Below are positions 8,610-28,400 of a DNA stretch of 64,000 nucleotides, piece by piece. A model generated the notes under the pieces. The model saw nothing but the letters and a program-made list of their open reading frames with translations, was not told where the DNA came from and ran no database searches. Position 1 is the stretch's first letter, and each line of letters opens with the position of its first letter. The stretch is from positions 1 through 64,000 of the forward strand of contig LGRX02035256.1 of assembly GCA_001247695.2 (NCBI GenBank). Reading direction: 5' to 3'. This stretch comes from Cymbomonas tetramitiformis (lineage: Eukaryota; Chlorophyta; Pyramimonadophyceae; Pyramimonadales; Pyramimonadaceae). Both the position numbers and the translations under genes were made by a program.

Positions 8610-8738
8610 GCTTTTCTCACTTCATCATCACCACCGCCCACACCGCCTCCATCTCCATCGTGCATCAGCTCCACGACCTGCTGATGTTTTTTCCGACGCT
8701 GGTGGCAGACACGCTTTCATTAGTGCTTTGTCACCCTT
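8560..8738 (+). other. LINE 3' UTR, first part
   Basis: Non-coding sequence between the LINE stop codon and the LTR insertion. It matches the reverse complement of about 25580-25756 in the second LINE copy. It ends in the target site CCCTT (8734-8738), which is duplicated at 23509-23513. Confidence 0.85.
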
Positions 8739-9254
8739 TGTGCTAGGACAACACACGGTGTCATGCGCGGATGACTCAGCAATGTCATACATGCCAGAAG
8801 TGTCATACGCGCCTTACAGCATTAGCGCCCGAGACCCCTGTTGAGGAAGAGACCCCCCTTATATGGGAGTACACAGTACCACTGTACTGTGTAATAATGT
8901 GACATGTAGAATACTGGCACATCATACTGCATGATAATGTAGTACAAGCATATGATAGGTTGATGAGACTTGGCCATGCTGACTAGGATTACCTCAGAGA
9001 GCTGAGTGAATAAGTAATGGCCAAGGCCAAAGAAACAATTGAGATTTCTAGAGTAAAAACAGCCGCATGGCAAAAAGTCAATATAATACCTAATTCTTAC
9101 TGCAAATATATGCACTGAGTCTGGACATAGTTCCTAAGAATCGACATAGCTTGATTAGTCTTATATAGTGCATAATATAGAACCTTGCACTATATATGAT
9201 CCACAAGTAGTTTCACAGTCACTGTCAAGTAGAGGTTTAGTACTGCCTCCTACA
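8739..9254 (+). repeat. 5' LTR of chromovirus
   Basis: 516-bp direct repeat of 22990-23508, TG...CA termini. It contains two dyads: a 9-bp inverted repeat around 8873-8894 (ACACAGTAC with GTACTGTGT) and TATATAGTGCA / TGCACTATATA around 9165-9200. The latter lies next to TATA-like sequence that could be the promoter. Confidence 0.96.
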
Positions 9255-9257
9255 AAA

Positions 9258-9266
9258 TGGTATCAG
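9258..9266 (+). promoter_or_regulatory. Primer-binding site (initiator tRNA-Met type)
   Basis: TGGTATCAG begins three bases after the 5' LTR. It is the usual complement of the 3' end of initiator tRNA-Met, the primer of many plant and fungal Ty3/copia elements. Confidence 0.85.
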
Positions 9267-10532
9267 TGTGCTACGCACCACCACCACCACCACCGCTTCC
9301 ACAAACTTTTTCTACTTTGAGATTGTAACTTTTCCGTCGAATTTACGTGTGCCTCAGTTTTTCGGATGGAATTTGGGCTCTCGAGTTACTGGCGCGTTAC
9401 ATAGCTTTGAGTCGCAGCACTGGCCAGTAACGTTGTTTACTGCTTCCTTTAGCGAGATGACTTGTGGCGCTGTCAGAATTCTTCTTCAAGTTGCTTGTGA
9501 GACGTAATCTTTCTTCGCGGATTGCTTCATAATGGTTTCTTCGTGCAGCTGCGCGTGCTTCGCAGTCTTATCTGCTGTGAGTGCCTAGTGCGCACGCAGT
9601 TCTTCGCTCGGATGTTCGTTGTGACGTTTGTTCCTCGGCAACAAAAGTTCTTAGAATTGTCGAATGCAGCATATACTTTCTTCGCGCTGTGATCTGTGAT
9701 GGAAAATTTCGGCTCGCCATGGGAGGGCTCCTACTGTGGCACAGTGTGCCACAAATAAAGTAGCCCTGCGCTATCTTTCGTCTTGCGTTCGCTCTGCGCC
9801 TGGGACTTTCAAATTACCTTTACAAATTATGGCAATTTTTGCGGGTGCTGCTTAAATTCGGGTACGTTTGAGAATGGTCGAAATTCTACTTCTGGCTCTG
9901 GCCCTTGAGTTCGCGCTCTGACGCGCTGGTCAACGACTCGTCGTTTTTCTTGCTCACTGGCAGTTTTGCGCCGTTAATTCTTCTCGGGAATTGTGCCAAT
10001 TAGTCGGCGTTTTCCGCGAGATCTTCGTCTACACTACCCTCTGCGATTGGGATGTGTGCGCAATGTTCTTCTTGGGCTCGGAATTGGCGTGATGCAACTT
10101 CAGATTAGCGCTATTCCGCTGGCGTGCGTGTTCTTCGTCGAGTGTCTTTGCGACTGAGTGGGATTACGCAATTTTATGCTTTGGAATTCGAAAATGTTCT
10201 CTGAATTGGCGGATGCGGCTTGCGTTCTTTGCCCTTAGGCTCTGCAGCGCTCTAGCGTTCTTAACAGTGACTAACCCTAAGTGGTATCGCGCTGCAACGT
10301 TGCTTTGGCTTCCGTGGGCCGATCGTTGCCCAATTTTGCTCAATTTGTTTTCATCTTACCTCTTCGAGTTCGCTGGGAAACTTCAATTGGGGTTTGGTAA
10401 CGGCAGTTGCTTATTTGCTGTTGGGCTTCTGCGTCTTCGCTCTTAACACTACACGCCTGTACGGCGGAAGCGCTGGCAGATTTTTCAGAATCAGATTGCT
10501 GCGTTTCTCCACCAGCTTAGGCAACGTTTTCA
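9267..10532 (+). other. Long untranslated leader of the chromovirus
   Basis: About 1.27 kb without a convincing coding frame. It starts with a short CAC microsatellite (9276-9294). It probably holds the packaging and translation-initiation signals of the genomic RNA, but none can be identified by eye. Confidence 0.5.
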
Positions 10533-11065
10533 ATGTCCTCTTCACGGCGGGCTTCTTCGCTGTATGTTCCGCCTCAGCGGCGCTCGGGGGTGGCGGAGGC
10601 TGCTTCTGGGCCCTCCGGGCTCTCTAGCTCGGCCCGGGTGTTTCAGCTCCGGGATGGGCTTGGGGCTTTGGGGCCCACCCCGTACTTTGTCCCGGAGTGG
10701 GAGGCGCCAGCCGGGGCGCGGCGGGGCAGCAGGGGGGGGGAGCAGTACAACGCTCTCTGGAGGGCGAATACGCGCTTTTGGCGAGCGCGCCTCTACCTCA
10801 AGAGGAACGTCGCACCCAAGCATCGCTGCCTGCCACGCCCACGAATTTCCCCGACGGCTCGCGTGACTCTCCTGGGCTGGTATCTGCCGCTGTACGTATG
10901 TCTGGGTGCTACTCTACACCCCAGCAGCGTGCGGGGGGTGCAGGTGCCTCGGGTCTACAACGTAGCCAACCAGCTCTCGAGGAGCTCAACACGGTCGCTA
11001 TAGCCACCGCTCATAATTTGAGATCATCTCCTCATAGCGAAGCTGTAGTTGACCATTTGCCTTAG
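10533..11065 (+). pseudogene. Possible N-terminal Gag extension, frame-broken
   Basis: An ATG-started frame at 10533 (MSSSRRASSLYVP...) runs in frame to a G10 homopolymer at about 10731-10740. Beyond that, the more protein-like frame is the one ending at 11065. The frame of the main Gag ORF is then open from about 11053. One reading is a Gag N-terminus broken by a G-run slip and one further shift; the alternative is that this is leader RNA. I cannot distinguish a sequencing error from real decay. Confidence 0.35.
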
Positions 11066-11154
11066 CACCAGAGCATCACGTTGGAAACCTGACCCATGAG
11101 AGCAACATATTTACGCCTAGGCGTGAAAGTGCACCTCCAAGTGGCGAGCGCGGT

Positions 11155-14100
11155 TTGTCAAGCGTGAACGAGTGGAGCGTCAAGCTGGCACGCCAAGCTG
11201 TAGCAGTGGATATTCTAGCGGTATGTGCATTGCGTAATTGGTGGAGTACTTGGACAGCACGAGTGCTCAGCGGGCGTGTTTCATCTGCACTTACGACATG
11301 GCACCTACGTGCCCGTCTCGCACGCATGCGTGTTTCCCTTACAGCATGGCACGAGCGAGTTCACCGCAAGAACCAGGTCCAACGCAAAAAGCAAGATTTT
11401 GCTGGACACGCAAGTTCACGATTGGCGTCCCGGCTCTTGAGTGCATGGCGAGAAGAACAACGTCGTGTAAAAGAGATCACTCTCGAAATCACGGCGTGCA
11501 ACATCGCCCGGTCCGAGTTCTACGTGAGGAAGTGTATGAAAGCGTGGAAGGCTACCGTGGACTTCGCTTCCAAGTGCACCACCTTTGCGGTCCAGCGTGA
11601 ACAACATGTGAAGCGCGAAGTCCTCCACGAGTGGTCAGCTCTGACGGACACGCCTGACGTGACCCCGAAGCAATGGGCGACCTTGCGTAGACATCTTCGC
11701 CGCCTGTGTGGCCAAGAAGACTCCATCGCTGCAATCACATGGGAGGTGCAGCTGAGAACGAAGAGTGGAGAGCAACGCGTGATCCCATCTCGTGGACTCC
11801 TTCTGTCGCATGTTACCTCAGCAAGCCACCATTATCATCACCTCCACTCTGCACGACCACTCGTCACGACCATCCCAGCCAACCGGCCTGCAAGGCTGGT
11901 GCGGTTGGGAGTGAGCGTCGAGGAGGTGATAAAGACTCTAAGGCGTACAACCACCTTGGGAGCAAGTGTTCAACAGCATGGCGTACAATCTGTACCTAGC
12001 CGCAACCCCTATGGCGTCTTGTCGTCTGAAGATGACTCCACGATCGATGAGGAAGACGTTCATTCCGCTGACTCCGCCCCACAACCACCTCGATCAAAAG
12101 CTTCATCCGCCCCACGACCCACACAACGAGAACGTGCTGTACGTGTCCAGGCTTTGACGGAGTTAGCCCACGAGAAGGAGGTGGCGAAGCAGGAGCGGAA
12201 GCGGCAGAAGTTGGCCAAGCGCAAGCTCGCCAAGGCTCGACGTCGCAGTGACGAAGGTAAACTGATGTACGACTCCACCTCTACGTCCAGTGAGGAGAAG
12301 TCCACACTTTCATCGTGTCAAACATCTTCTACTGAAGCGCTCTCCTCTGACGCCTCGCACACCTCTTCATCAAGGAGCTCTCGGCAAAAGGGTGGACGCC
12401 AACGGCGGCGCCAAGCTCAAGTCACGCGACACGAGCGGCAACTACGAGAGCTGCAAGAGGAGTCCGAACGAGTCGCGTTAGATGCGGCCACTGCGCACCA
12501 AGCGCAGCTCACAGCGTTGCGCATGGACATGCACAATGCCGTGGAGGAAGCAACCCGGATGCATCAGGAGCTCCGCACCACGGTGTGCCAAGAAGCGCGA
12601 CGGGCCGCTCTCGAATCTGCTGAGGAGCAGATAGCGCGCATGCAGCATGCCGCGGACGTTGTCTCGCATCAGCATGAGCAAGCTGTAGCATCGCAGGCGG
12701 AGGAAGCTGCACGTCATCACCAACAACTTCGAGAAATGCAGCGCGCCGCGGAAGAGCAACGCCAGCAACTTGACCAAGCAGCTCGAGAGCAACGACTGCT
12801 GGAGCAACAAGTGGCGGAGAGCAAGATAGTGGTGCAGGCCGCCCTTGAAGCCGCTGACGGACGAGCGCACTCACGGCCAGAACAACCACCTAATACCCCC
12901 GCGAGCTATGCGACCGTCACAAGTGACGCTCAAGAAGCTGAACACGAGGCTCTGATGGTGCCCCCGTCAGCCACGACTGTGGACGTACGGGGCCACAAAG
13001 GCGTGACGTTCGAGGAGGACGCCTCCAAGCGTGCATCTTCCCCCACGAGTGTGCATGACCGCCTAGCCAAAATGGATTGGAGGTCCATTAGTGTGCCTGC
13101 CGTTACCGCTATCCGTGCACACGTGGAGGAGCACTTACCTGGCCACGTGGGCAAGATGGAAGCGGAACGCATGTTCTGTGACGTAGCAAGAAGGTACCGA
13201 GACCATGACCTAGCGTCTGGGTGTGGACCGCCGGTCTCCGAAGCCCCGGCCTCTCAACTTCCTTCACCACCTCTGGCGGGAACGGCGATCGTTTGTTGCG
13301 TGTACGACGAAGTCGCGTCCAGCACGTCCAACGTTCCGTGCTCGAGATGCGCTCGTAGCCCGCAGCCCCCTGTAGCCATATGGAATTGCGGGCTTACAGC
13401 TCTTTCAGACTTGTCGGAAACCACTCAATTCCTGCCGTTGTGTATATATTGCACGCGCGGGGTTTGGCCGGGAGCCTTTGACCGCTTCCCTTCAGTGACC
13501 CCGAGGCCATCCTCAGCAATTGGTGGGACCAGTGGGGGCGGCGGAGGCGACGACGATGGAGGCGATGGTGATGACGACGGTGACGACCCGGGAGGACCCG
13601 GTGGCCATCAAGGGGGGGGGAATGAGCCGCCTGGCGACCCCACTTCTGACGCGCCTAGCGACCCCTCGCGGAATCTTGGAGATGGACGTCGCGGCCATGG
13701 CGGGGGCGGAGGCGGTGACGATCCGCCCGACGATGAGACGTCCTACAGCTTCGGTTCGAGTAGGAGGTCCTCGTACAATGATGGCAGGCAGCAAAGGGAG
13801 GAGTACACGAGGCACTCATATGCCCTCAAGGCCGCGAAGGACATCATGTCCTTGTACTCAGCACCGCTGGAAGGGTCCACGAACCCCTTCGGCCCGCTGT
13901 TGCGGTTCGTGGACGAGTTCGACAGGTGCTTAGCCCTTCCAGTGGTGCTCCTCGCGATGAACACCCCGTGCAACGTGCCCAACGGAGCGTTCGAGCTCGG
14001 AGAGCCGATTCTCTCGGTGCATATCTTGTTGAAGGAGATCACCCAGCATTGCTTCCCTACGCCTAGCTCCGAAGGAACGGAGCTGCGAGGGGTTCTCCTG

Positions 14101-14871
14101 GATGCCGAGGCGGACAAGTCGTTGAACCTTGAGAAGGTCATTGTGCCGCTGGCGAAGCTGATCGTGCCGCTGAAGAGTGAAATGGCCACCTTGGGCTCGT
14201 TCCTACGCCGAGTACGCCAAACTCAAGGACGCATGGCGACACCGCGCAAAGTGCGCGAGTTTTGGGATGGACTGCATCTAGCCCATCGCGTAGTGACCAT
14301 GTTGGCGACACACGAGCTCACCACACCGGTTCCGGAATCCGACCTCCTGGACGTCTTCCTCTCGGGCTTATCCGCGGAGGTACGGAAGGAGGCGTTCGAG
14401 ATTGCAGAGCGGAAGGGGACCCCCTTGATCCTCCTCGACCGCGCCCTTCCAGCCAGTCGACGCCTAGCGCTGGAATACGCCATTGAGGCGGAGTTGCATT
14501 TGAACAACGCGACGAGTAGGAGAGCGCCAGTGCAGCTACTGGCAGCGGTGGAGGTCTCGGAGGAGCTACTAGCTCTAGCCGAAGATCGTCCCGCGGGTGC
14601 AACTCCTACTGGGCAACGTCTGGGCTCCCCGGAGTACACTGGTTGCAGGTTGTGCCAAAGCAAAGAGCACTATGCTCGAGAGTGCCCACAGGCTGCTCTT
14701 CGTAAGAAGGAGTGGGCCAAAGCACTTCTGGCTGAAACTTTGGACATGGTCATGCACGAAGTGGAAACGGATGAATACTGCGACGTGCTCAACGCGGTGC
14801 TGCCAAAGGAACTAATGGATTTTGCCGCGGAGGACTCCCTCGAGCTCGGAGTACCCTCCAAGTCCCAATGA
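11155..14871 (+). CDS. gag: Gag-like polyprotein of chromovirus (Trp-repeat helices, coiled coil, capsid-like region, CCHC zinc knuckle)
   Basis: The frame is open from 11053, the codon at 11155 is TTG and the first in-frame ATG is at 11326, so the start is uncertain. Residues here count from 11155. Residues 25-175 hold spaced motifs such as LTTWH, LTAWHERV, LSAWREEQRR, MKAWK and LHEWS, like Sfi1-type centrin-binding helices. Residues 395-580 are a long Gln/Glu/Ala coiled coil. A Gly/Asp-rich linker lies near 789-830. A capsid-like helical region (about 880-1120) is followed by a canonical C-x2-C-x4-H-x4-C zinc knuckle at 1164-1177. At roughly 1,240 residues it is far longer than usual Ty3 Gag. 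Role: particle assembly and RNA packaging. The stop codon overlaps the next start as ATGA. Confidence 0.85.
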   Translation: MSSVNEWSVKLARQAVAVDILAVCALRNWWSTWTARVLSGRVSSALTTWHLRARLARMRVSLTAWHERVHRKNQVQRKKQDFAGHASSRLASRLLSAWREEQRRVKEITLEITACNIARSEFYVRKCMKAWKATVDFASKCTTFAVQREQHVKREVLHEWSALTDTPDVTPKQWATLRRHLRRLCGQEDSIAAITWEVQLRTKSGEQRVIPSRGLLLSHVTSASHHYHHLHSARPLVTTIPANRPARLVRLGVSVEEVIKTLRRTTTLGASVQQHGVQSVPSRNPYGVLSSEDDSTIDEEDVHSADSAPQPPRSKASSAPRPTQRERAVRVQALTELAHEKEVAKQERKRQKLAKRKLAKARRRSDEGKLMYDSTSTSSEEKSTLSSCQTSSTEALSSDASHTSSSRSSRQKGGRQRRRQAQVTRHERQLRELQEESERVALDAATAHQAQLTALRMDMHNAVEEATRMHQELRTTVCQEARRAALESAEEQIARMQHAADVVSHQHEQAVASQAEEAARHHQQLREMQRAAEEQRQQLDQAAREQRLLEQQVAESKIVVQAALEAADGRAHSRPEQPPNTPASYATVTSDAQEAEHEALMVPPSATTVDVRGHKGVTFEEDASKRASSPTSVHDRLAKMDWRSISVPAVTAIRAHVEEHLPGHVGKMEAERMFCDVARRYRDHDLASGCGPPVSEAPASQLPSPPLAGTAIVCCVYDEVASSTSNVPCSRCARSPQPPVAIWNCGLTALSDLSETTQFLPLCIYCTRGVWPGAFDRFPSVTPRPSSAIGGTSGGGGGDDDGGDGDDDGDDPGGPGGHQGGGNEPPGDPTSDAPSDPSRNLGDGRRGHGGGGGGDDPPDDETSYSFGSSRRSSYNDGRQQREEYTRHSYALKAAKDIMSLYSAPLEGSTNPFGPLLRFVDEFDRCLALPVVLLAMNTPCNVPNGAFELGEPILSVHILLKEITQHCFPTPSSEGTELRGVLLDAEADKSLNLEKVIVPLAKLIVPLKSEMATLGSFLRRVRQTQGRMATPRKVREFWDGLHLAHRVVTMLATHELTTPVPESDLLDVFLSGLSAEVRKEAFEIAERKGTPLILLDRALPASRRLALEYAIEAELHLNNATSRRAPVQLLAAVEVSEELLALAEDRPAGATPTGQRLGSPEYTGCRLCQSKEHYARECPQAALRKKEWAKALLAETLDMVMHEVETDEYCDVLNAVLPKELMDFAAEDSLELGVPSKSQ

Positions 14872-16436
14872 GCTCGGGCCCACATCCCCGCGATGAGCCC
14901 CCCTCCTACCTCTCGGAGCAGCAGTTGCGGGAGAAGTGGAGAAGAGCCCGTCGACGTCAAAGGCGGAGTGCTCCTTGCACAGGATACCTAGACTCCGATG
15001 AGCTCAACATGCTACCCTCGCGGGCGATGACTAGCCCTCCTCCCGCGCCGGAGCGTCAAGTGGTCGAAGCTCGCCTTCGCAAGGAAGCCAAGTCTCCAGT
15101 GTGTACGAGCGAGGACCTCACAGACGACTCCCAGCACGTTGAGAAACGGCACCGACGTACCCTGAAGGTGACCGAGAGCTACCGCGTGCACTTGGAGCCA
15201 ACGGGCCAACCATTGCAAGGTTGGCAATTTCGAGCTGTCCGAGGGCAAGGGACGAGCGCTTTACGCTCCAAAGTGGGCACACGGGGCTTGAGGTCCTCCA
15301 TCAAGGCTCTGGAAACGGACCTTGCACCGCCCCGTACACCTCCGCGGAGCACGAGCCCACCGCTTTGGAGAGCCGGGCATCGACGCAGCAGCCGAGGACC
15401 CACGCGGTCACCAACGCACAGCGCGGTTACCGCCAACAAGCGAGAAGCTCGAGCTCGATCACCCTTACCCGCAGCCCTTAACAAACTTAAAAGGCTGCAA
15501 GAATACCGACGACGACGTCAAGACATCCAGCTTGGGCGTCGACCTCGTACGCCCTCACCTAACGACAGCACGACTGCCGAGGCAACCTCAACCACATGGA
15601 GTGACCGCCCCCGACCATGGCTGTCACCGACCCATGCAGCTCGAGCTGAAGGAGCACCAAGGAGGAGGTGGCTCAGTGGGCTGGAGAAGGTTCGCCAACG
15701 AGAGAAGCTTAAGCGGGATTATGCCAGTGGCCTCCCATATTTGGAGCGGGACTCTCCTATAGACGAAGAGCTACTGCACATCTTAGCCAAGGAACAAGCG
15801 CAAGAGGAAGTAGAAGATGGACTCCTCCAGTACGCAAGTGACTTGGCGACGAATGATATGGCGCGAGCAGCGAAGGACAAGGTCATCCAAGTGGCCTTGT
15901 ACCCACCTGATCACCCACCCAGGGACCTGGTGCAGACAGCCACCGCTCAAGGGCTCTTGGCCGATGCAGGCACCTACGAGTTACCATGGGACTCTGACAT
16001 GGACGACCCTCCTGACCTAGGCGACCCTCATGCCAAGGACGACCCCTTCATATGCCAGCTCAACAGCATCATCGACAGTGGGGACATGAGCCCTGGCTGG
16101 AGTGATCTCTTGGCGGCTGTATCAACATCGCGAGCGCCACCTCGACAGATCAACAATTCCAAGGCCCCCACCTTGTTGTTGTTCTGGGCGTACGTGAACG
16201 GTCGTCGCGTAAAGGTGCTGGTGGACAGTGGGTGCTCCACCGACATTATCTCGGACAAGACTGTACGCAGCATTCCCTCCCTGACGCCTCGACCTCACGA
16301 AAACCCCATGCGAGTGCGAGTAGCTGACGGCGCGTCGTACGATGTCAACACGTGCGTCCATCCGTCCTCGACTGCAAGCAGAGACCACCAAGGGGTTGTA
16401 CGTCAAGCAACTGGAGCTCAGAGTGATGCCCATTGA
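14868..16436 (+). CDS. pol: Pol N-terminal part: basic/proline-rich region and first half of the aspartic protease
   Basis: The ATG at 14868 overlaps the Gag stop (ATGA), a stop-restart arrangement. The first ~400 residues are Arg/Ser/Pro-rich and unassigned. Near residues 439-462 comes VLVDSGCSTDIIS, the retropepsin active-site strand (D-S-G) of a Ty3-type protease. After DGASYDVNTCV (about 16360) the frame loses protease similarity. It resumes in the +1 frame as RLQAETTKGLY...DIILGGPWL. A 4-nt insertion at about 16358-16362 explains the break. The partner is the next ORF. Confidence 0.8.
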   Translation: MSSGPHPRDEPPSYLSEQQLREKWRRARRRQRRSAPCTGYLDSDELNMLPSRAMTSPPPAPERQVVEARLRKEAKSPVCTSEDLTDDSQHVEKRHRRTLKVTESYRVHLEPTGQPLQGWQFRAVRGQGTSALRSKVGTRGLRSSIKALETDLAPPRTPPRSTSPPLWRAGHRRSSRGPTRSPTHSAVTANKREARARSPLPAALNKLKRLQEYRRRRQDIQLGRRPRTPSPNDSTTAEATSTTWSDRPRPWLSPTHAARAEGAPRRRWLSGLEKVRQREKLKRDYASGLPYLERDSPIDEELLHILAKEQAQEEVEDGLLQYASDLATNDMARAAKDKVIQVALYPPDHPPRDLVQTATAQGLLADAGTYELPWDSDMDDPPDLGDPHAKDDPFICQLNSIIDSGDMSPGWSDLLAAVSTSRAPPRQINNSKAPTLLLFWAYVNGRRVKVLVDSGCSTDIISDKTVRSIPSLTPRPHENPMRVRVADGASYDVNTCVHPSSTASRDHQGVVRQATGAQSDAH

Positions 16437-17520
16437 TCTTTGCGTGGATATTATCCTTGGAGGACCTTGGCTAGCCTCTCACTCCCCAGTCACCCTGGAT
16501 TACTCCCGATGGGGTTCCATCCGGTTTGGTTCTGGAAGCAAGAGAGTGGTCATTACAGGCTGCTCTCCGGGAACGCCAGACCCCTCAAGACCCAAGGATA
16601 AGGCCATGGCGCTGGTACAAGGAGTCTTGTTGGACCCCAAAAGAGTACGCAAGGACCTTCGAGCCCTCCAATCTAAGGATGAGTGTGCCTTCGTGGTGTA
16701 CCTAGCACCCGACGGCACCTTCGGGGCGGTCGCCTGTAACGAAGAGACCGACGCCGAGACCAACGCCAAGCCCAGGGACGCTTCGTCCGAGCGTCGCGCC
16801 ACGTCTAGCTCTGAGCAGCAAGACGCCCAAGTCGCGGGCGCCATGGACTCCTCCCAAGCGGATCTGGGTGAGACGGACGCGCCTGCGCTGATGTCCGCGT
16901 CAGACACTGACTCCGAAGCCGAGGACGCTCTACTCCTCCGGGAATCTGTGCGGCCCAGCCCAGGCACCAGTGACGAGGACCACTTGGATAAGGTGTACGC
17001 AACAGTGGAGTCCACCCGCCCACAAAACTTTGACGTGGTCGCGCTGGAGGGTGCTGTTGGCCCGCCGGCGGACAATGCGCCATCCAACAACCTACATCTG
17101 GGGTTCTTCCAGAGCAAGCGCGAAGCTTTGGGAGCATTTGCTTTATTACCTGAGCACGTACGTGCCCAAGCAATCGACGACCACGCGCAAGGGAAACCAC
17201 CCACCTGGCATGCCGAAGCCGCAGCCGCGCTGGAGCAGGGAAGGCGCTTACTCCGCGAACGTCGGCCGCGACGCAAGCGTGTGCGCTGGAGCGACGAGAA
17301 GCCCCATACTGAAGGTTTATCTCAAGAGCAGGCCGCTCCTGTGGCCGAGGAACCACCGTCACCGTCACCGCCGCCCAAGCCCCATGCCATGGAAGCGGAG
17401 GAGCCGGACGAGATTGACGAGACAGTGTCCCCGGAGATATGGCAACAGCTGCGCGACCTTGAGGAGGAGTTCAGGGACGTCATATGTACGGAGCTGCCTG
17501 ACTCCGTCCAAAGCCGCGAC
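16342..17520 (+). CDS. pol: Pol: second half of aspartic protease and protease-RT linker, truncated by MITE
   Basis: It carries the C-terminal retropepsin strand (IDLCVDIILGGPWLA) from about 16432, then a ~330-residue acidic linker. It ends in the pre-RT motif (EEEFRDVICTELPDSV) typical of Ty3 Pol. The frame continues into MITE sequence and stops at 17655; that tail is not native. Removing the MITE plus one TSD (297 bp, 99 codons) joins this frame to the RT frame without a shift. The ATG at 16342 only opens the frame; it is not a native start. Confidence 0.8.
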
Positions 17521-17809
17521 CAGGGTAGAAGTCTTACCGTGGCGGGCCGGCCCGGGGCCGCAGAAGCTCGCTCCGGGCCGAAACCGGGCCGAAGGGGCTT
17601 TCGCCCCCGGGCCGCACAAAAATATGAGCCGGCCAAACTTCGGCCAAAAATATAGGCATTTTATGCCACTTTTTATCAAACCCCCATACTTAATTTCAAA
17701 ATTTCGCGCCTGCGGCGGGCATTGTTCTTCTTTGACCGTTTTGGCCGAAAGCGGGCCAGCGGATATATAGTTTACGGGCCGTAAAGAATTTTGGAAGACT
17801 TCTACCCTG
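17521..17809 (+). mobile_element. hAT-type MITE inserted upstream of RT
   Basis: 289-bp insert with terminal inverted repeats of at least 15 bp (CAGGGTAGAAGTCTT), flanked by 8-bp direct repeats GCCGCGAC (17513-17520 and 17810-17817). CAGGG termini plus an 8-bp TSD are a hAT superfamily signature. It is non-coding: GC-rich short palindromes on the left and AT-rich sequence on the right. It splits Pol but preserves frame. Confidence 0.92.
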
Positions 17810-20064
17810 GCCGCGACTACAAGAACAACATTCGCTTGCGATCCGACTGGAGTGGGCAGCCGCTACATCGGCGTAACTACAAGTTGTCGCAAGAGGAGCT
17901 TCGGCAACTTCGTGCACAACTTGACGAGCTGTTGGCCAAGGGGTACATCCGTCCATCGGCGTCTCCCTGGGGTTGTCCGGTACTTATGGTGCCGAAGCCG
18001 AGCAACCCTAAGGAGTTGCGCTTGGTTATCGACTACAGGTCGATAAATGAGATCACGGTCAAGGACAAGTACCCTCTTCCTGACGTACAAACCCTCCTCG
18101 ATGACCTACAAGGAGCAACCGTCTTCTCCACTGCAGACGCCTTGTGGGGATTCTGGCAAGTTCCCATGGAACAGGAGGACATCGAGAAGACAGCCATGAC
18201 CACCCACTTCGGAGCTTATGAGTGGCTGGTCATGCCTATGGGACTGAGCAACTCACCGAGCACGTGGCAAAGAATGATGACGCAGTACCTCGGACACCTA
18301 CCCTTCTGCAGAGTGTTCGTGGACGACATCATGATTTTCAGTGACACACCTGAGCAGCATGTCGGCCATGTACGAGCTGTATTAGCGGCCTGTCGCCAGC
18401 ACAAAGTATACCTCAAGCGGAGCAAGTTGAAGTTGTGCATGCGAGCAGTACGCTTCCTTGGCCATGTGTGCAGTAAGGAAGGTTGTCGCCCCCAACGCGA
18501 CAAAGTTGCCTCGGTTCGCGACTGGCCGGAGCTCGAGACTGTCACCCACGTGCGCCAATTCCTTGGAATGTGTGGCTTTTACCGGCGGTACATCCAGTCC
18601 TTCGCTCACATTGCCCACCCTCTCACTCGCCTCACGAAGATGGGAGTGCCATGGACTTGGGGCAAGGAGGAGAAAGAAGCCTTCCAACGATTGAAGTCAG
18701 CATTGATTTCAGCACCAATCCTCGCCCTACCGGACCAGCGCTCAGCAGCCGATGGGTCTCGCCCATTTTGCGTGCAGACCGACGCGAGTGCGGTCGCACT
18801 AGGAGGCGTGCTGATGCAAGACCTGGGACGAGGTCTTCAGCCGTTGGCCTTCGAGAGCAGGCAATTCTCCTCGGCCGAGCAGAACTACCACGCTGGGGAG
18901 CGGGAGCTGTGCGCCATCCACCACTGCACCACAGTGACGTGGAGGCATTACCTTATATTCACCGACTTCAAACTCATGGGTGACCACAAACCCTTGCAGT
19001 GGCTCTTCGCGCCGGCTCGGGAGCTGAGTCGACGCCAGGCACGCTGGTATGAAGACTTGGTGGAAGTGGGCGTGCACCAAATGGAGCACGTACCTGGCCG
19101 ATGCCTAGTAGTTCCGGACGCCCAATCCAGACGACCAGACTACAAGCAGTCATCCGCCAGGGAGGGGCTCAAGGAGAAGGGCGTGGTCGACCGGGACACA
19201 GACGAGCCTCGTCAGAGTGTGCCAAGGGAGTCGGCTGAGAGCTCAACCCCCGCCGATCCCACCTCAGTATTCGGTGCAATCGACGAGGACGACACCGACG
19301 AAGAGCCGTCCGAGGAGCCCGCTAAAGTCAAGACCCTTGAAGACCCCATCTCGGTGCTCGACTCCACGTTTGATTACTCCGACTCTGAAGACGAGTCTGT
19401 ACCTCCGGTCAGCCCCCCGTTGGTCGTTGGGGAGCTCACTCATCTGAATGGGCTCACCTGGGTGGAAACCCCCGACCTGTGGGAAGACGCAGCTGAGACG
19501 TTGCACACCGCGGAGCGCGCCTTGCATGAAGCCACCCTTGCGGGCGTCACTACTCGCTCTCGCTCGCAACCGGAGCAAGCCCCCTCTCCAGCCCCCTCAA
19601 CTCCCCTTAGTCCTTCCCCTCCCAGCAAACAAAGTTCCCCTCCCGCGTCAAGCTCCCACTACGATAACGTGGTAGACCGGCAGGACTGGAAACTGGTAAA
19701 GGAGAAGTTCGAAGAGATCTCAGCGCAGTACGGCCCGTTCGACGTGGACGCGTGTTGTGACTCCATGGGCGTCAACCGCCAGGTGGACACCTATTGGACG
19801 GAGTGCCTCAAGCAGCAATGGCGGGGAAAGCACGTCTGGTGCAACCCCCCCTACACCAAGGATAGCAACCTCATTGAGAGGATCCTACGCCACTTTATGG
19901 CTGAGTGGCGCGCCGACCCAGAAAACACGTCGGCGATGTTCCTACTGCCGGACTATGACGACGCGTCCTGGCGCACCCTTATCCAGCCCAAGTACGGCCT
20001 GCACGCACGTGGTCAAGGTGTTCGACCTCAAGGATGCCAAGGGTCACCCTACATGCTTGTTTGA
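17810..20064 (+). CDS. pol: Pol: reverse transcriptase, RNase H and start of Dam-like methyltransferase
   Basis: The open frame begins inside the MITE (TTG at 17791); native sequence resumes at 17810. RT (about 17980-18450) shows LVIDYRSIN, STADALWGFWQV, MPMGLSNSPSTWQ and FVDDIMIF, the Ty3 F/YVDD site. RNase H follows at about 18770-19110 (VQTDASAVALGG, RELCAIHH, DHKPL). A 150-residue acidic Ser/Pro linker leads to a phage Dam-like (PF05869-type) domain from 19675: FDVDACC, WRGKHVWCNPPYTK and FLLPDYDD. The native frame ends near 19997, where a tandem CACG duplication shifts translation; the last ~20 residues are off-frame. An amino-methyltransferase between RNase H and integrase is not part of the standard Ty3 layout. 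Confidence 0.9.
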
Positions 20065-21754
20065 GTCACCAGATGGAGGCCGCCCAGCGCTGCGGTGGCC
20101 CGTGCTGCTGGTGTGGGCGCCAGCGGCCAGCCGGACTCGGCCTCGAGCGAAGAGTGCCCGTGCGCCCGCCGCTCAAGGTGCAAGCGAGCCTATGGTCACG
20201 TCAGGGCCAGCGGCCAAGGCACGCGCAACCAAAGGACCACTGAAAGCATGCCAGTTCGTGAAAGCACTACGCGCGGAGTACGAACGTAGCCCTTACCTCA
20301 CGATGTTAAAGGAAGAGCTTTTAGCCGCCCCGCACCAGCGCACGGACACCTTCCGTATGGTTGACGACATGATCTGGCGCATCGCGGAGGGACGCTACCA
20401 GCTGGTGTTGTCATCCGACTCTCCCCTTCGAGAGATAGTCATGCGTGAAGCGCACGAGTCTCCCGCGGCGGGACACACCGGACGAGATAAGACTCTTGCT
20501 CGGATAGTGCGGCGGTTCTGGTGGCCTCGCATGAACAAAGACGTCACCGACTGGACCCGCTCGTGCTTGATATGCCAGCAGACCCGCCCGAGGAACAGCT
20601 ATCCGGATGGCCAGCTGAACCCCCTCCAGGTCCCGGTCAGGCTGTGGCAGGTGGTGAGCATTGACTTCGTCACAGGTCTGCCGCGCACGGAGCGGGGCTA
20701 CGACGCCTTCGCCACGTTCACGGACAAGTTGTCCAAGATGGTGCACGTGGTCCCCATGCTGTACTCTGACAGTTCCGCTGAGCAAGTGGCACGAATGTAC
20801 TTCGACCATGTTTGGCGACTGCACGGTGCTCCCATGAAGATCGTTTGTGACAGGGACTCTCGCTTCCGTGACGCCTTTCATATGGAGTTGCATCGCCTTA
20901 TGGGGGTGCAGGTGGCCTCCACTACGCCGTACCATCCACAAGGGGACGGTCAAGCGGAGCACACAAACCACACGGTGGAGCGCATGTTGCGCGCCTACGT
21001 TGACGCAAACCAGACAGACTGGGATTTGTGGTGCACCCCGGTGGAGTACGCCATTAACGACTCCAGGTCCGCGGTTACTGGATTCACACCCTTCGAGCTT
21101 TGCTATGGGCATGCCCCAGCGTCGCAGCTCGACTTCTTCGTAGAAGCTGCATTGGCCTCTCGTAGGGGCCGCGCCAAGGGGGGGAGAGGGGACGTCGTGA
21201 AGAAAGGCACGGCCCACGAGACCGCCCGGCAGTTTGTTCAGCAGTTGCAGACTGCTCGCGATAGGTTGCTGGTAGCTCAGCAGCAGCAAGTGGCCCAGTA
21301 TGATGCTCGCCATCGCGCTCGCCGGTACGCAATAGGTGACATGGTGTGGGTGGACGCCACGCATCTCACCCAGCCCGGGGATCGGGGCCTACACAAGAAG
21401 TTGCTGAAGAAGCGCCTGGGCCCGATGGAGGTGCTGGAGGCCTTCCACAGCGACCGGCAGATGGAGCTCGCCACCGAGGACCGAGGGGCCCCCGCGGCTT
21501 ACCGCCTGAAGCTACCACCACAGTGGAAGGTGCACGACGTCTTCACCGTGGATAGACTCACCCCAGTGGAGTCGGGCCAGGACAAGTTCGCGGACAGGAG
21601 TGCGGAGATTCCGCCTCCCCCTGTGGACGTGAGCGGTCGTAAGGAGATGGCGGTGGAGTGCATTGAGAGGTCACGCACGAGGAGACGTAGCGGGCGGACA
21701 TGGACGGAGTACATACATGGTCAAATGGGTAGGTATGCCGCGCTCCGAGAATGA
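19757..21754 (+). CDS. pol: Pol: end of Dam-like domain, integrase and start of chromodomain
   Basis: Native from about 20000 (HVVKVFDLKDAKGHPTCLF), which completes the Dam-like fold begun in the previous frame. The integrase has an HHCC zinc-binding domain at about 20430-20590 (H...H...CLICQ). Its DDE core has Asp in SIDFVTG (about 20660), Asp in VCDRDSRF (about 20845) and Glu in GDGQAEHTNH (about 20957). A GPY-like C-terminal part follows (LKKRLGPMEVLEAF). The frame runs into ECIERSRTRRRSG...EY, the first strand of a chromodomain, then breaks at about 21710 at an ACATACAT duplication. The integrase inserts the cDNA, and the chromodomain normally tethers it to modified histones. Confidence 0.9.
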   Translation: MTPWASTARWTPIGRSASSSNGGESTSGATPPTPRIATSLRGSYATLWLSGAPTQKTRRRCSYCRTMTTRPGAPLSSPSTACTHVVKVFDLKDAKGHPTCLFESPDGGRPALRWPVLLVWAPAASRTRPRAKSARAPAAQGASEPMVTSGPAAKARATKGPLKACQFVKALRAEYERSPYLTMLKEELLAAPHQRTDTFRMVDDMIWRIAEGRYQLVLSSDSPLREIVMREAHESPAAGHTGRDKTLARIVRRFWWPRMNKDVTDWTRSCLICQQTRPRNSYPDGQLNPLQVPVRLWQVVSIDFVTGLPRTERGYDAFATFTDKLSKMVHVVPMLYSDSSAEQVARMYFDHVWRLHGAPMKIVCDRDSRFRDAFHMELHRLMGVQVASTTPYHPQGDGQAEHTNHTVERMLRAYVDANQTDWDLWCTPVEYAINDSRSAVTGFTPFELCYGHAPASQLDFFVEAALASRRGRAKGGRGDVVKKGTAHETARQFVQQLQTARDRLLVAQQQQVAQYDARHRARRYAIGDMVWVDATHLTQPGDRGLHKKLLKKRLGPMEVLEAFHSDRQMELATEDRGAPAAYRLKLPPQWKVHDVFTVDRLTPVESGQDKFADRSAEIPPPPVDVSGRKEMAVECIERSRTRRRSGRTWTEYIHGQMGRYAALRE

Positions 21755-22934
21755 ATGGAAAACTCGCGAGGACCTCGAATTCGATGGAGTTGGCCGAAAA
21801 GGGATACCTAACCGCGCTCTTCAGGAGTTCGAGAAGGTCGAGGCCAAGAGGCAAGAACGTGAAAAGAGTAGAGTCACTCGCAAACGCGAGGAGTCAGCAG
21901 GAGCGATATGGTTGACGGATCCTGAAGAGTTACAGGCGGACGGAATGGCGTGGATCCCGGAAGAACGAGCCGACGACGAGGTGGGCACATTCGCGACGGT
22001 GTCGTCCACTAGTTTCATGCCATCTCAAGGACCTGGTCGAGGAGCGGCACGCCTACAGCCGTCTCGACGCCCAATACGGATCTTGGTGTTGTTTTGTGGC
22101 ACAGGCTCCGTCGAACGACAGTTCAGCAAGCAGTTTCCTGGGTGTGAGGTAGTCTCGGTGGACATCCAGAACCGATGGAAGCCCACTCACTGCGAAAACG
22201 TCCTGCACTGGGACTATCGGCAGTTCTCGCCCAAGCACTTTGACGTCATTTGGGCGAGCCCTCCATGCACGGAGTATAGCCAAGCCAAAACGGTAGGGAT
22301 ACGAAACTTGCGTGGTGCTGACAGACAAGTGCGGAGAACGCTGGAGATCATCAAGTACCTCCAGCCGAGCTTCTACTTCATCGAGAACCCGCGTGGCCGA
22401 GCTCCTCATGGGTTACACACTCGCCGATGCATGCAAGGGTTGCCACCTCCGCATCTGGCTACGTATTGTAAGTATGGTATGCCCTACAAGAAGCCCACCC
22501 ACTTCTGGACCAACGCGCCTATCGCCACTCTGAAGTCTTGCGACCCCGAAAACCCCTGCGACTTCAAACGCCGTTATGGGCGGCACGAGAAGATGGCGCA
22601 GAGCGGCTCCGCCAGCAGAGAGTCGGGCGACCCTAGACCAGGCATGGGAGCTGGATGGCACGTGTATGGCATCCCCGCAGCCTTGCTTAAACAATTATTC
22701 AGCTCTCTACCGGTGGAACAACCCGTGGGGGCAATCGCAGCGGTGTGTGAATACCTAGCGGAGCTGCTTTGGAGAGATGAAAATGAGACAGGTCTCAACG
22801 ATGAAAGAGTCTGCGCTAATCCGGAAGAAGCTGACGAGGAGCCGGTGACCTTGATGCCGGAGTACAGCCCTACGCCGCCACCAGTGATGTCCGACGACAG
22901 CGAATGGGACACCATGGGCTCCGAATCAGCCTAA
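21663..22934 (+). CDS. Pol C-terminus: chromodomain and C5-cytosine DNA methyltransferase
   Basis: Native from about 21715: the chromodomain continues as YMVKWVGMPRSENEWKTREDLE. After a charged linker, residues about 135-355 form a C5-methyltransferase. Motif I is LVLFCGTGSVERQF (SAM site). Motif IV is WASPPCTEYS, whose Cys is the expected nucleophile. Motif VI is FIENPRG. A YCKYGMPYKKPTHFW segment follows, shared with phage-like cytosine methyltransferases. The frame continues from integrase once the 4-nt duplication is allowed for. It ends 39 bp before the polypurine tract. Retrotransposon-encoded cytosine methyltransferases are known from some dinoflagellate and charophyte elements; co-occurrence with a Dam-like domain is the unusual point. 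Confidence 0.88.
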   Translation: MRGHARGDVAGGHGRSTYMVKWVGMPRSENEWKTREDLEFDGVGRKGIPNRALQEFEKVEAKRQEREKSRVTRKREESAGAIWLTDPEELQADGMAWIPEERADDEVGTFATVSSTSFMPSQGPGRGAARLQPSRRPIRILVLFCGTGSVERQFSKQFPGCEVVSVDIQNRWKPTHCENVLHWDYRQFSPKHFDVIWASPPCTEYSQAKTVGIRNLRGADRQVRRTLEIIKYLQPSFYFIENPRGRAPHGLHTRRCMQGLPPPHLATYCKYGMPYKKPTHFWTNAPIATLKSCDPENPCDFKRRYGRHEKMAQSGSASRESGDPRPGMGAGWHVYGIPAALLKQLFSSLPVEQPVGAIAAVCEYLAELLWRDENETGLNDERVCANPEEADEEPVTLMPEYSPTPPPVMSDDSEWDTMGSESA

Positions 22935-22973
22935 CGACTGTGCATCTAAGCACAAGCGAGGACGCTTCCCACC

Positions 22974-22989
22974 TGAAGGGCGGGGGAGT
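22974..22989 (+). promoter_or_regulatory. Polypurine tract
   Basis: Purine-rich GAAGGGCGGGGGAGT-type run directly abutting the 3' LTR, the expected primer for plus-strand DNA synthesis. Confidence 0.85.
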
Positions 22990-23508
22990 TGTGCTAGGAC
23001 AACACACGGTGTCATGCGCGGATGACTCAGCAATGTCATACATGCCAGAAGTGTCATACGCGCCTTACAGCATTAGCGCCCGAGACCCCTGTTGAGGAAG
23101 AGACCCCCCTTATTATATGGGAGTACACAGTACCACTGTACTGTGTAATAATGTGACATGTAGAATACTGGCACATCATACTGCATGATAATGTAGTACA
23201 AGCATATGATAGGTTGATGAGACTTGGCCATGCTGACTAGGATTACCTCAGAGAGCTGAGTGAATAAGTAATGGCCAAGGCCAAAGAAACAATTGAGATT
23301 TCTAGAGTAAAAACAGCCGCATGGCAAAAAGTCAATATAATACCTAATTCTTACTGCAAATATATGCACTGAGTCTGGACATAGTTCCTAAGAATCGACA
23401 TAGCTTGATTAGTCTTATATAGTGCATAATATAGAACCTTGCACTATATATGATCCACAAGTAGTTTCACAGTCACTGTCAAGTAGAGGTTTAGTACTGC
23501 CTCCTACA
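22990..23508 (+). repeat. 3' LTR of chromovirus
   Basis: 519-bp copy of 8739-9254, identical as read except for three extra bases (ATT) near 23113. It is followed by TSD CCCTT at 23509-23513. Confidence 0.96.
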
Positions 23509-23513
23509 CCCTT

Positions 23514-25449: not shown

Positions 25450-28400
25450 ATAATAATAATAATAAAACATTTACGTCGATGAGTAAGGCAACGCCTTCGG
25501 AACGATCTACTCGAGTCTGTTCCCCTCATACATGACAGTCTGCTAAGGCAGGAAGCATTCCACAAAGCGTGGAAGCAGGGGTGGCAAAGCACTAATGAAA
25601 GCGTGTCTGCCACCAGCGTCGGAAAAAACATCAGCAGGCCGTGGAGCTGATGCACGATGGAGATGGAGTCGGTGTGGGCGGTGGTGATGATGAAGTGAGA
25701 AAAGCCCAGGGGTGCTCCGGCCCCTGGGCCGGTGGTGCCCCCTTAGGGCCGGGGCCCTAAGGGGCCCCAACCCCGTGGGGGCTGGGGGGAGGGTGGGGGT
25801 TCACATAGCTGCCTAGCATTTCCCCTGCTGCCTTTACCACATCGGTTACTTTCCTATTTTCCGTGCAAAGTTCCTGAATGTTGGGTGCCTCTTCTACAAT
25901 GCCACTCTCAGGTAGGGCTCCCGTTTCATGTAATATGCATCTTTCCCTTGCATGACGCCTACACATTCTGGACAGTTTTTTCAAGAGTGTCTTCACCCCA
26001 CGGTGTGGAACCCCGATCCCTTTGAGCACCTTGCCAAAGCCTTCTGGTAAGTACCCCATGAGAGCAAGTTCCTCCGGCCACTCCACCGCATTAAGGAAGG
26101 GGGTTCCTCCTGCGTTCCTGTGCCCGCCATCCAAGTGTGCTCCAGGGTACTGGTTTCGTTGTTCCACATTATTCCTGCCCCCCACCCACGGACACAATCG
26201 GGGCGGCAACAGACAATCTTTCTCACTAAGGGCTTGCTCAATCATATCCGGGTGCAGGCCCGTTTCTTTGAGCAATTTGGGGGTGATCTTTTTATGCGGG
26301 ACTACATTTATGAACCATTGAAGCAACTTGTATTGCATTTTCTCATTATCAAGTTTCTTACTAACAGGACACCCCATGCTCTCACTATCAATGGATAATA
26401 TGACCACATCTGAGTACTTATCTTTGTAACATCCCTCCCCTGGCATTGTGTAGGGCCCCTTACCTGACCAATAATCATGTGGAATGAAGGGTATGGTTCC
26501 CCTTGGGTACTTGAAAATAAGCTTAAAACCCTTACCTGTCCACTTTTTGAGGTTCTTTGGCGACAATGGCAGGATCCAAATCCCCTCAAATCCCTCCGAG
26601 GTCCTGGCCGCCTCTAGGCCACGGGACAACGTTTGCATAACAGCAGATGCTTCCCTGAGAACCCCCCCATCAAAGGGTGGGTTCCCATATACCTTTTTCC
26701 CTTTTCCCGTTACACTGTTGACATATGCATCTCTTGCAAGTCCATCCCACCCTATCTTCCCCTTGTGGCAAAAGGGTCTCAACGCCCCCTTCATAGCCGC
26801 CGTGGGAATGCACCTCCTTGACTTGATTCCTGGGTGAGAGTTTACAGGGTTACAGAAAAGCTCACATCCGTCCTTTCCTAAGCCTCTCTCATCTATGATG
26901 ATATCTAATAGGTCTCTTCTTATCGCATAACAATTCTTCGGGTCACCCGACTCAGTATTACATGCTATAAGTGCCGAGTGAATATCATTGGCCCGTTGTG
27001 CGTAATTGCTGATCGATGTCTGGGGTGTATCAGTTGTCAGCCTATGCCACTCAACTAACTTCCAGAATTCTTTCTTTTTAATGTACTGAAGGTCTTGGAA
27101 GTTGTGACTGCCATCACTGTTCGTGTCTATGGGTGCAGAAGCTACTGCTACAGTGCCTTTCCTAGTGTTTGACAACCTATACATGCTGGCCTCCGGTAGG
27201 GCAGCAAGTGGTCTAGAGGCTGTTAAGTCATTGTCTATTTCTGCTAAGGGGAAGATTTCGGAGGGGCTGATGATGCCCCCCCTTGTGTTACTGCCTTCTA
27301 TTATCAATCTCGGGTCTCCCACTGTGGCTTTCCTGATGGTTTCTTTCATTTCCTCCTGCTGGTTTTCCCTTAACTGGTGTAGTTTATTTCCTTCCCCTGG
27401 GCAATTCAGTTGGATGTGTGTGTAGGTGCATTGTGTTGTTGCGCCACACGTTCGGCAGGTCGGGCTTTCACCAATTCCCATCCTATGTGCTCTATGTGGG
27501 GATGCCTGTAGGCCTGTGAGTTCCCTGCATCTATAAGCTGTGAAGTACTTGGATGCAATCTTTGATACATCCTTGATTGGTTTCACATGATTCTCCTCCA
27601 ATAGCCTGAGTGCCCTTCCTTGTCCGTGCATGTCTTTCCACTTTTTGTGGTGGCTCAATCTTTGGAGTCTCCTAATGTGGTTCCTGATGCCTCCCGTTAT
27701 GGATTGTTCATGAAAGAAGAGAGAAAAATCTAAGTCCCCATCTTCGTCGAACCTGAGCTGTCTCCCGCTGTACCTGAAAGCCGCTCTTTTGGCCGTCCTA
27801 TCTACTTTGTCATGAAGTCTATCGTTATTGTGCCCTCTGATCCATTTGATCAGGAGTTTCGCCTGTCCCATTGTGTTGTAAAATCCTAATTCCTCCAGAA
27901 TCAGTCTAATGGCTACCAGGTCCCTTCTGTTCGGCTCTTGCATAAGGTCCCTGACATTTAGGGTTCCAGGGTCACGGTTTACAGCATTGATAGTTGCCAT
28001 GGAGTCAATCACATGGGTAAGAGGAACCATGGTGTTTAGAATTTCATGCTTCCGATCTTGGAGTAACTTTCTGAGGCCTAAAATTTCTGCAGTAGTAGAG
28101 CTAGGTTTATGGATGTTATCTATGATTCCTGCAGTGGGTGAGGTGATAGGTGCTTCCCTTGGTATGTTATGTTTACTCATGACCGGTGTAGGGTCTCCCT
28201 CCTCAAATCTCATGTATGCTGCTCCGCAACTTGCAAAAGATGAACTTTTGTAGAGTGATCCGTCACTTGCAAAGTCAAAGCTAACCCTCTTATCTGCTTC
28301 GTCCTGTGCGCCCTGTTCTTCATCCTCTGATGCACTCGGGCAGCTGAACTCACTGTTATCCGCTGCGCATGAGTTGTTGCATCTAGCTCTGAAAAGGTCA

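Follow-up and report, generated by a model that had tools for sequence, protein, structure and literature searches.

Transposons usually stand on the receiving end of DNA methylation. Several described retroelements encode methyltransferases of their own, and among those closest to the element reported here is KnitGypsy-Dnmt3 of Klebsormidium nitens, which has a gypsy-type Pol with a C5-cytosine methyltransferase (C5) in the polyprotein, retains the catalytic residues and is under purifying selection (Ka/Ks < 0.2; de Mendoza et al. 2018, PMC5890265). Its enzyme belongs to the Dnmt3 family, its repeats are DIRS-like in structure (Fig. 4 legend of that paper) and the available text describes no Dam domain. 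SymbioLINE-Dnmt and SymbioDIRS-Dnmt3 (PMC5890265) are likewise retroelements through which C5 enzymes have been amplified in the genome of an alga, but they are built on LINE and DIRS backbones, and the available text describes for them neither an integrase-chromodomain nor a pair of Dam and C5. Dam domains have been known in DIRS elements since 2001 (as cited in the accessible part of PMC6338049). In Cymbomonas tetramitiformis itself, chromodomain, RNase H and cytosine DNA methyltransferase sequences were reported on three scaffolds with >10,000x coverage, and the authors linked them to retrotransposons (PMC5741210); in the available text these pieces are not joined into an element and Dam is not mentioned.

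We analysed a 64,000-nt stretch of C. tetramitiformis DNA (henceforth referred to as ‘the window’), which contains a complete Ty3/gypsy LTR element of 14,770 bp with near-identical LTRs and the domain order gag-PR-RT-RNaseH-Dam-IN-chromo-C5 (PR, protease; RT, reverse transcriptase; IN, integrase). Compared by description with KnitGypsy-Dnmt3 as presented in the accessible part of its paper, this element differs in having ordinary LTRs, a C5 domain that is phage-like by sequence, a chromodomain and a Dam-like domain. It shares with DIRS elements that carry a Dam/N6-adenine methyltransferase the position of the Dam-like domain directly behind RNase H (host loci L083 and L106), whereas those elements have a tyrosine recombinase in place of the integrase-chromodomain; NPPF is found in 11/11 DIRS-type loci of the host, and C5 gave no match in the stretches of the host DIRS-Dam elements that were examined. 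Dam-only DIRS elements and C5-only retroelements are thus already known, and our literature search found no published retroelement with both. Taken as a whole, the explanation we prefer, with a probability of roughly 0.55, is a Ty3/gypsy family whose Dam-like and C5 methyltransferases mark its own nucleic acid or copies.

Anatomy of the window element

The element lies on the forward strand. Its 5′ LTR (8739..9254, 516 bp, TG...CA) and 3′ LTR (22990..23508, 519 bp) are direct repeats that are the same apart from 3 nt in length, and they are flanked by the target-site duplication CCCTT, immediately 5′ of the 5′ LTR (8734..8738) and directly after the 3′ LTR (23509..23513). Right behind the 5′ LTR lies the primer-binding-site-like sequence TGGTATCAGTG (9258..9268), which we take to resemble the initiator-tRNA-Met type, and right ahead of the 3′ LTR the polypurine-tract-like sequence GAAGGGCGGGGGAG (22975..22988). 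Together with a gag gene followed by PR-RT-RNaseH-IN, in which IN is downstream of RNase H, the paired LTRs, the duplication and the two priming sites identify a Ty3/gypsy LTR retrotransposon. A DIRS identity was ruled out, as an integrase is present where DIRS elements have a tyrosine recombinase and the LTRs are simple direct repeats. The observed/expected ratio of CpG is 0.40 in the LTR (TpG 1.49) compared with 0.96 in the internal part, and is likewise low (0.39) in a LINE-like stretch upstream.

The gag open reading frame (11155..14871, with a mechanical TTG start and its first ATG at 11326) contains a CCHC zinc knuckle (14644-14685; neither zf-CCHC_2 at 0.0011 nor zf-CCHC at 0.0041 reaches the cut-off), and its stop overlaps the start codon of the protease frame (14868..16436), which has VDSGCS at 16221 and scores slightly under the Pfam cut-off (Asp_protease_2 8.2e-5, 23.7 bits vs 24.3). 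Our own profiles and Pfam place the reverse transcriptase at 17920..18495 (RVT_1 1.3e-32; VFVDD at 18313), RNase H at 18796..19143 (RT_RNaseH 9.3e-28) and the integrase, with H2C2 zinc binding and core, at 20453..21142 (Integrase_H2C2 1.6e-22, SH3_Tf2-1 8.3e-9; core rve 2.6e-5, under the Pfam cut-off). Between RNase H and IN lies the Dam-like N6-adenine methyltransferase domain (19675..20125, profile stretches 19675-20010 and 19997-20125), with FDVDAC at 19738-19755 and CNPPY at 19840-19854. The chromodomain (21653..21791) is split by a frame change into two profile stretches in two frames and stays below cut-off (Chromo 7.9e-4, 19.7 bits vs 25.1); it is followed by the C5 domain (22077..22706), with LFCGTGS at 22089-22109, SPPC at 22257-22268, FIENP at 22377-22391 and KPT. 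All motifs quoted in the earlier note are therefore present, and the order RT-RNaseH-Dam-IN-chromo-C5 that it had read from the letters was borne out by Pfam and our own profiles. The described arrangement, a predicted Dam-like methyltransferase between RNase H and IN and a compact C5 domain behind the IN-chromodomain, is almost certainly correct.

Frame changes occur in the protease (~16,360-16,410), around 17,541-17,791, in the Dam-like domain (~20,005) and in the chromodomain (~21,710), so that the window copy lacks one continuous polyprotein. Judged by its sequence, it is a recently inserted, frame-broken copy of a Cymbomonas Ty3/gypsy LTR retrotransposon family. The four breaks are present despite an LTR difference of only 3 nt, an observation that counts against the explanation we prefer. 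A programmed frameshift at the Dam and chromodomain breaks is unsupported because relatives pass both sites in one frame (P0121 across Dam; P0122, P0129 and P0131 across Dam and chromodomain); Dam is also unbroken in P0192, which is near-identical to the window (99% over RT-RNaseH-Dam) but is a gene model and hence not proof.

Conservation of the methyltransferase pair

The pairing recurs well beyond this copy. Using our own profiles, Dam, C5 and IN were found together in 25/230 retrieved proteins, 24 of them in the window order that the earlier note had proposed to search for, and the same order is repeated in the host genome, which excludes chance or an annotation artefact as its source. In P0131 a single protein carries Dam (6.9e-8), chromodomain (9.6e-7) and C5 (8.5e-6), all over the Pfam cut-offs; the chromodomain C-terminal to IN is also above cut-off in P0122 (5.9e-7), whose C5 falls slightly under (21.4 vs 22). 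Among 33 gypsy-type Dam loci of the host with at least 2.5 kb downstream, mostly from a sister family of the window element, IN follows in 30, a chromodomain in 27 and C5 in 26, and ten have Dam-IN-chromo-C5 in one open frame; 7/33 are without C5 downstream. Two long relatives have less than the full set by our own profiles, with neither Dam nor C5 detectable in P0162 and Dam but no detectable C5 in P0167, which indicates that the pair is dispensable. A worn C5 suspected at either C-terminal end is unsupported, since the profile scores (0.1 and 0.9 bits, respectively) are at the level of reversed controls (0.0, no hit) and of an unrelated P0162 stretch (0.2).

Elements with Dam and/or C5 come out together in the integrase tree, in one clade (SH-aLRT 97) in which 18/19 rows have one or both domains, as opposed to 0 of the other 42 rows. 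The tree unites this clade with a group that includes elements from Volvox, Helianthus and Podarcis (SH-aLRT 98 for the 29 rows). The label chromovirus, given in the earlier note, is supported by the chromodomain C-terminal to the integrase, and the tree places the element among rows that include no named chromovirus reference.

Both methyltransferase domains exceed the Pfam cut-offs in the window: Dam (PF05869) with E=6.9e-10 and 39.3 bits against a gathering cut-off of 28.1, covering model positions 8-78 of 169, and C5 (PF00145) with E=4.6e-6 and 26.7 bits against 22, covering positions 2-112 of 324. The catalytic motifs SPPC and ENP are present in the window C5, and the catalytic residues of the methyltransferase domains are among the invariant alignment columns. 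SPPC is found in 54/55 and ENP in 51/51 gypsy proteins, and the host's own loci retain NPP[YF] in 37/37 and SPPC in 26/28 cases. Significant matches and motifs kept in host copies are the opposite of what the earlier note had named as speaking against it, namely no methyltransferase match or loss of the catalytic residues from all copies. Nei-Gojobori counts gave pN/pS values of 0.19 (0.14-0.26) for Dam in 27 copies, 0.21 (0.16-0.27) for C5 in 22, 0.10 for IN in 26 and 0.30 for the chromodomain in 25, in a sister-family sample drawn from the 150 best Dam scores, with the domain required to be open and pairs non-independent, and hence biased toward intact copies. Synonymous sites between the window and the sister family are saturated or nearly so. 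As read from these sequence comparisons, both methyltransferase domains are under purifying selection in the sister family of the same genome.

This conservation bears on the possibility that the domains are weak or dead and would act within Pol by binding nucleic acid or as structural modules, by analogy with some DIRS adenine methylases; for DIRS1-type elements, an N6-adenine methylase described as ‘catalytically inactive’ is on record (in the accessible part of PMC3537659). NPP[YF] is retained in only 26/33 gypsy proteins, some of which are gene models, so that seven depart from it, and P0167 ends in a stretch that resembles a worn C5 by eye, without PPC or ENP and at a non-significant score. 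Set against the invariant catalytic residues, the near-complete retention of SPPC, ENP and NPP[YF] and pN/pS values of ~0.2, we regard such a loss of activity as improbable.

Possible substrates and roles

The earlier note had read the pair as writers of two DNA marks and had suggested structure prediction as a check. For C5 the prediction agrees, as the model aligns over its whole length with DNMT3A/B and M.HaeIII. For the Dam-like domain it is equivocal: in structure comparison the closest solved fold is that of PCIF1, a cap-specific adenosine N6-methyltransferase acting on mRNA, which is nearer than E. coli Dam, and both DNA and RNA are therefore possible substrates. The two-mark interpretation thus stands as to the retention of both domains and their catalytic motifs, and is weakened as to the substrate of one. 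The nearness of this fold to an RNA enzyme counts against the explanation we prefer. Sequence searches against solved structures returned weak matches.

The Dam-like domain might accordingly be a PCIF1-like RNA adenosine methyltransferase that modifies the element RNA (cap-proximal or internal m6A/m6Am), with C5 alone acting on DNA. The likeness to PCIF1 is confined to the catalytic domain, at ~11% identity, and a shared fold says nothing of substrate. By sequence, 6/6 members examined match PF05869 and 6/6 match the phage N-6-adenine-methyltransferase family TIGR01712 (best 1.2e-12), although the P0122 domain, at 27.7 bits, stays below the curated equivalog cut-off of 97.05; the PCIF1 model PF12237, on the other hand, gave no match over its cut-off, with 1/6 members at E 0.048 and P0051 at 0.0081 (16.2 vs 31.1 bits). 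An RNA substrate for this domain is, in our view, unlikely.

Phage-like relatives of both domains (phrog_757, 3.2e-18, for the window C5; phrog_111, 3.2e-12, for the P0131 Dam) could be taken to favour a role in defending the host cell or the particle, in which the enzymes would label element DNA as self to guard it from a methyl-sensitive nuclease, or would target competing DNA viruses. An anti-viral role of retrotransposon methylases has already been proposed in general (in the accessible part of PMC6338049). We consider such a role highly improbable. In a tree of the N-terminal part of Dam, 23 gypsy and DIRS Dams grouped apart from 44 viral and two other rows with a support of 86, too weak to settle their origin; when coverage of at least 0.75 was required, one viral row was left.

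For marking of the element's own nucleic acid or copies, the explanation we prefer, a route can be proposed tentatively, at somewhat below even odds. Inside the particle, the Dam-like domain would modify adenines in the element's own nucleic acid, and the IN-chromo-C5 part would remain with the cDNA throughout integration. The position of C5 behind the IN-chromodomain would favour action on integrating DNA, and the enzyme may then methylate cytosines either in the new copy or in chromatin read by the chromodomain. The new insertion would thereby be pre-marked like resident DNA, so that the cDNA would be shielded or the chromatin state of the copy set to the element's advantage. The idea of self-methylation is that of de Mendoza et al. 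(2018, PMC5890265, as far as its text is available), extended here to two enzymes; in the same paper KnitGypsy-Dnmt3 showed no activity in yeast, a result that was inconclusive by the authors' own control (section 10) and that counts against the explanation we prefer.

Coupling of Dam and C5 also occurs in other orders in proteins resembling retroelement parts (IN-C5-Dam in P0059; protease-like, Dam, C5 and an RT-like end in P0071), which would make paired adenine and cytosine marking a general strategy of retroelements. We think it rather unlikely, on present sequences, that an old retrotransposon lineage has coupled an N6-adenine and C5-cytosine kit to a histone reader in this general way; taken furthest, this reading would have the adenine enzyme mark RNA of the element itself and the cytosine enzyme its integrated DNA, a dual self-label over both phases of the life cycle.

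One element thus encodes two predicted methyltransferase domains and a chromatin reader, and copies of its sister family keep the methyltransferases under selection. The PCIF1-like fold raises the possibility that retroelement ‘Dam’ domains act on RNA. If the domains are active, two marks could be written by one element on its own copies or RNA, and the purpose of retrotransposon methylases would become a directly testable question, for which the DIRS-Dam elements of the same host, without C5 in the stretches examined, would provide a natural comparison within one cell.

The element in the window and its two methyltransferase domains

The window contains a complete LTR element (8,739-23,508; 14,770 bp) bounded by LTRs of 516 and 519 bp (8739-9254 and 22990-23508) that begin with TG, end with CA and differ solely by 3 nt of length. 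A TGGTATCAGTG site is located directly 3' of the 5' LTR, a purine tract directly 5' of the 3' LTR, and the 5-bp duplication CCCTT is present on both flanks. Since the LTRs are near-identical and the flanking duplication is present, we infer that the insertion is young. The 5' LTR is CpG-poor (o/e 0.40) and TpG-rich (1.49), with a CpG o/e of 0.96 in the internal part; this deficit is possibly the result of old 5mC decay, or of composition alone. The internal part comprises a gag ORF carrying a zinc knuckle (knuckle match below the Pfam cut-off), a protease (Pfam match slightly under the cut-off) and, detected with Pfam and our own profiles, reverse transcriptase (RT), RNase H, a Dam-like domain (Dam), integrase (IN), a chromodomain and a C5-cytosine methyltransferase (C5). 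The earlier note had proposed that one element encodes both methyltransferases; the motifs it quoted lie in both domains where it had placed them, and both domains score above the Pfam curated cut-offs. Two long ORFs on either side of the LTR element, at 1-8559 on the + strand (2,852 aa, open-ended at the window edge) and at 25757-30745 on the - strand (1,662 aa), each contain one RVT_1 match and no further Pfam match at 0.01, and are probably LINE-like elements.

The window element was analysed with its frame breaks left unrepaired; the frame changes at four places: within the protease, in the interval from about 17,541 to 17,791, within Dam (about 20,005) and within the chromodomain (about 21,710). 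The retrieved protein P0121 reads through the Dam break in one frame, and P0122, P0129 and P0131 read through both the Dam and chromodomain breaks. A further relative, P0192 (a C. tetramitiformis gene model with 23 member sequences), matches the window at 99.05% over 738 residues of RT-RNaseH-Dam and has an unbroken Dam domain. Because relatives cross the Dam and chromodomain breaks and the Dam of P0192 is intact, the sequences indicate that the window copy is broken and that the clade as such is not.

Retroelements with Dam or with C5 have been reported (PMC6338049, PMC5348765, PMC5741210, PMC12477816, PMC7824862; further PMC11673190, PMC3537659, PMC9998398, PMC11244446, PMC5890265), and no report of both in one retroelement was found in the open-licence papers searched.

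Relatives and origin of the two domains

Our own profiles, which were built partly from these same sequences and are less strict than the Pfam cut-offs, placed Dam, C5 and IN together in 25 of the 230 retrieved proteins, 24 of them in the window's order. Other combinations were Dam with IN (16), C5 with IN (23, some of which start within IN so that Dam could not show) and IN alone (55); many of the retrieved proteins are Cymbomonas gene models. The order RT-RNaseH-Dam-IN-C5 is kept in the long polyproteins P0157 and P0160, of which the former has a PHD finger (precomputed PF00628) placed by eye between Dam and IN. A PHD-like cysteine stretch was seen by eye between the same domains of P0160, and these stretches may give some lineages an additional chromatin reader. 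In the integrase tree (61 rows), all rows with Dam and/or C5 fall in one 19-row clade (SH-aLRT 97), the sole other member of which, P0162, has neither domain; this pattern fits one old acquisition of both domains with some losses, the tree being a quick one and no proof.

The pair also occurs in other arrangements, in proteins not placed in the integrase tree: P0059 (IN-C5-Dam) and P0056 (C5-Dam), in which GNPVY replaces NPPY and Dam is under the Pfam cut-off; P0051 (C5-Dam, both domains over the cut-off); P0071, where Dam and C5, both over the cut-off, stand between an aspartic protease and an RT-like end (both by eye); and P0064 (Dam-C5, C5 under the cut-off). Because these proteins were retrieved by a C5 search, they are uninformative on the frequency of the pair. 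The same kind of C5 stands ahead of an aspartic-protease-like stretch in P0063, P0081 and P0105 and is joined to a viral-packaging-ATPase-like stretch in P0054 from Symbiodinium microadriaticum (all by eye), and among 80 viral contigs retrieved for their Dam (L109-L188), four (L125-L128) also have a C5 match inside the retrieved stretch.

The window C5 matched the phage methyltransferase family phrog_757 at 3.2e-18, better than all Pfam/PDB sequence profiles tried. In the C5 tree (105 rows), the domains of gypsy type form a group of 26 (SH-aLRT 91; 24 of them 96), which takes in the C5 of P0059 and stands with nine proteins showing no other domain, separate from 31 viral rows. In the Dam tree, gypsy and DIRS Dams fall on one side and 44 viral plus 2 other rows on the other, with a support of only 86. 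The position of Dam behind RNase H in both gypsy-type and DIRS-type elements suggests that an RNaseH-Dam stretch was exchanged between them.

Copies in the host genome and selection on their domains

C. tetramitiformis is a prasinophyte-type green alga with a genome estimated at 850 Mb-1.2 Gb, in which three scaffolds of >10,000x coverage were noted to carry a chromodomain, an RNase H and a cytosine methyltransferase (PMC5741210); these are probably fragments of the window element's clade. A PF05869 (Dam) search of the assembly (851.7 Mb, 25,745 contigs) returned 7,257 loose first-look candidates, the best 150 of which were scored, the window's own copy being absent from the 150. All 150 were above the cut-off without internal stops, the longest open frame reaching 3,110 residues, and DIRS elements were among them. 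We annotated 48 loci, 8 returned by the search (L081-L088) and 40 selected from the 150 (L089-L108, L189-L208), of which 37 are gypsy-type and 11 DIRS-type (L081-L086, L090, L092, L106-L108), the tyrosine recombinase having been identified by direct reading in just L083 and L106, with the other nine grouped by similarity. For 33 gypsy-type loci, 2.5 kb or more of sequence was available downstream of Dam; in it, IN was found in 30 of them, the chromodomain in 27 and C5 in 26 (absent in 7), and Dam-IN-chromodomain-C5 lay within one open frame in 10. Integrase DNA was 97-100% alike among 12 of the annotated loci that have a full integrase. When six gypsy-type loci were compared with the retrieved proteins, five were 95-97% identical to P0129 and L202 was P0150-like. 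Because the compared loci are mostly P0129-like and P0129 shares about 56% identity with the window in the integrase part, the locus counts are, as judged from these comparisons, those of a sister family and not of the window's own.

Pooled Nei-Gojobori pN/pS between sister-family copies with an open frame across 90% or more of the domain (95% codon bootstraps; pairs not independent) was 0.19 for Dam (0.14-0.26; 27 copies), 0.10 for IN (0.08-0.14; 26 copies), 0.30 for the chromodomain (0.17-0.49; 25 copies) and 0.21 for C5 (0.16-0.27; 22 copies). NPP[YF] is kept in 37/37 gypsy-type and 11/11 DIRS-type loci, and the loci with a C5 match (one of which, L104, has C5 on the opposite strand) keep SPPC in 26/28 and ENP in 24/28. 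Among the gypsy proteins, SPPC was present in 54/55, ENP in 51/51, NPP[YF] in 26/33 and FDVDAC in 27/37. The form in all 11 DIRS-type loci is NPPF, unlike the DIRS1 methylases, which PMC3537659 describes as inactive.

A possible role for the paired methyltransferases

Domain order, conservation and selection are shown by the sequences; the mechanism that follows is a proposal. In the particle, the Dam-like domain would be kept beside RT and RNase H, where it would meet RNA, cDNA and the RNA:DNA hybrid. For its part, the C5 domain would be tethered to integrase and chromodomain, and would therefore accompany the cDNA to its target. De Mendoza et al. showed that SymbioDIRS enzymes methylate CG sites when tested in yeast; for the gypsy-type enzyme they saw no such methylation, a negative result that is inconclusive (PMC5890265). 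The simplest reading is that a new copy would be marked by the element's own methyltransferases, a self-marking that the same authors proposed for retrotransposon DNMTs (PMC5890265).
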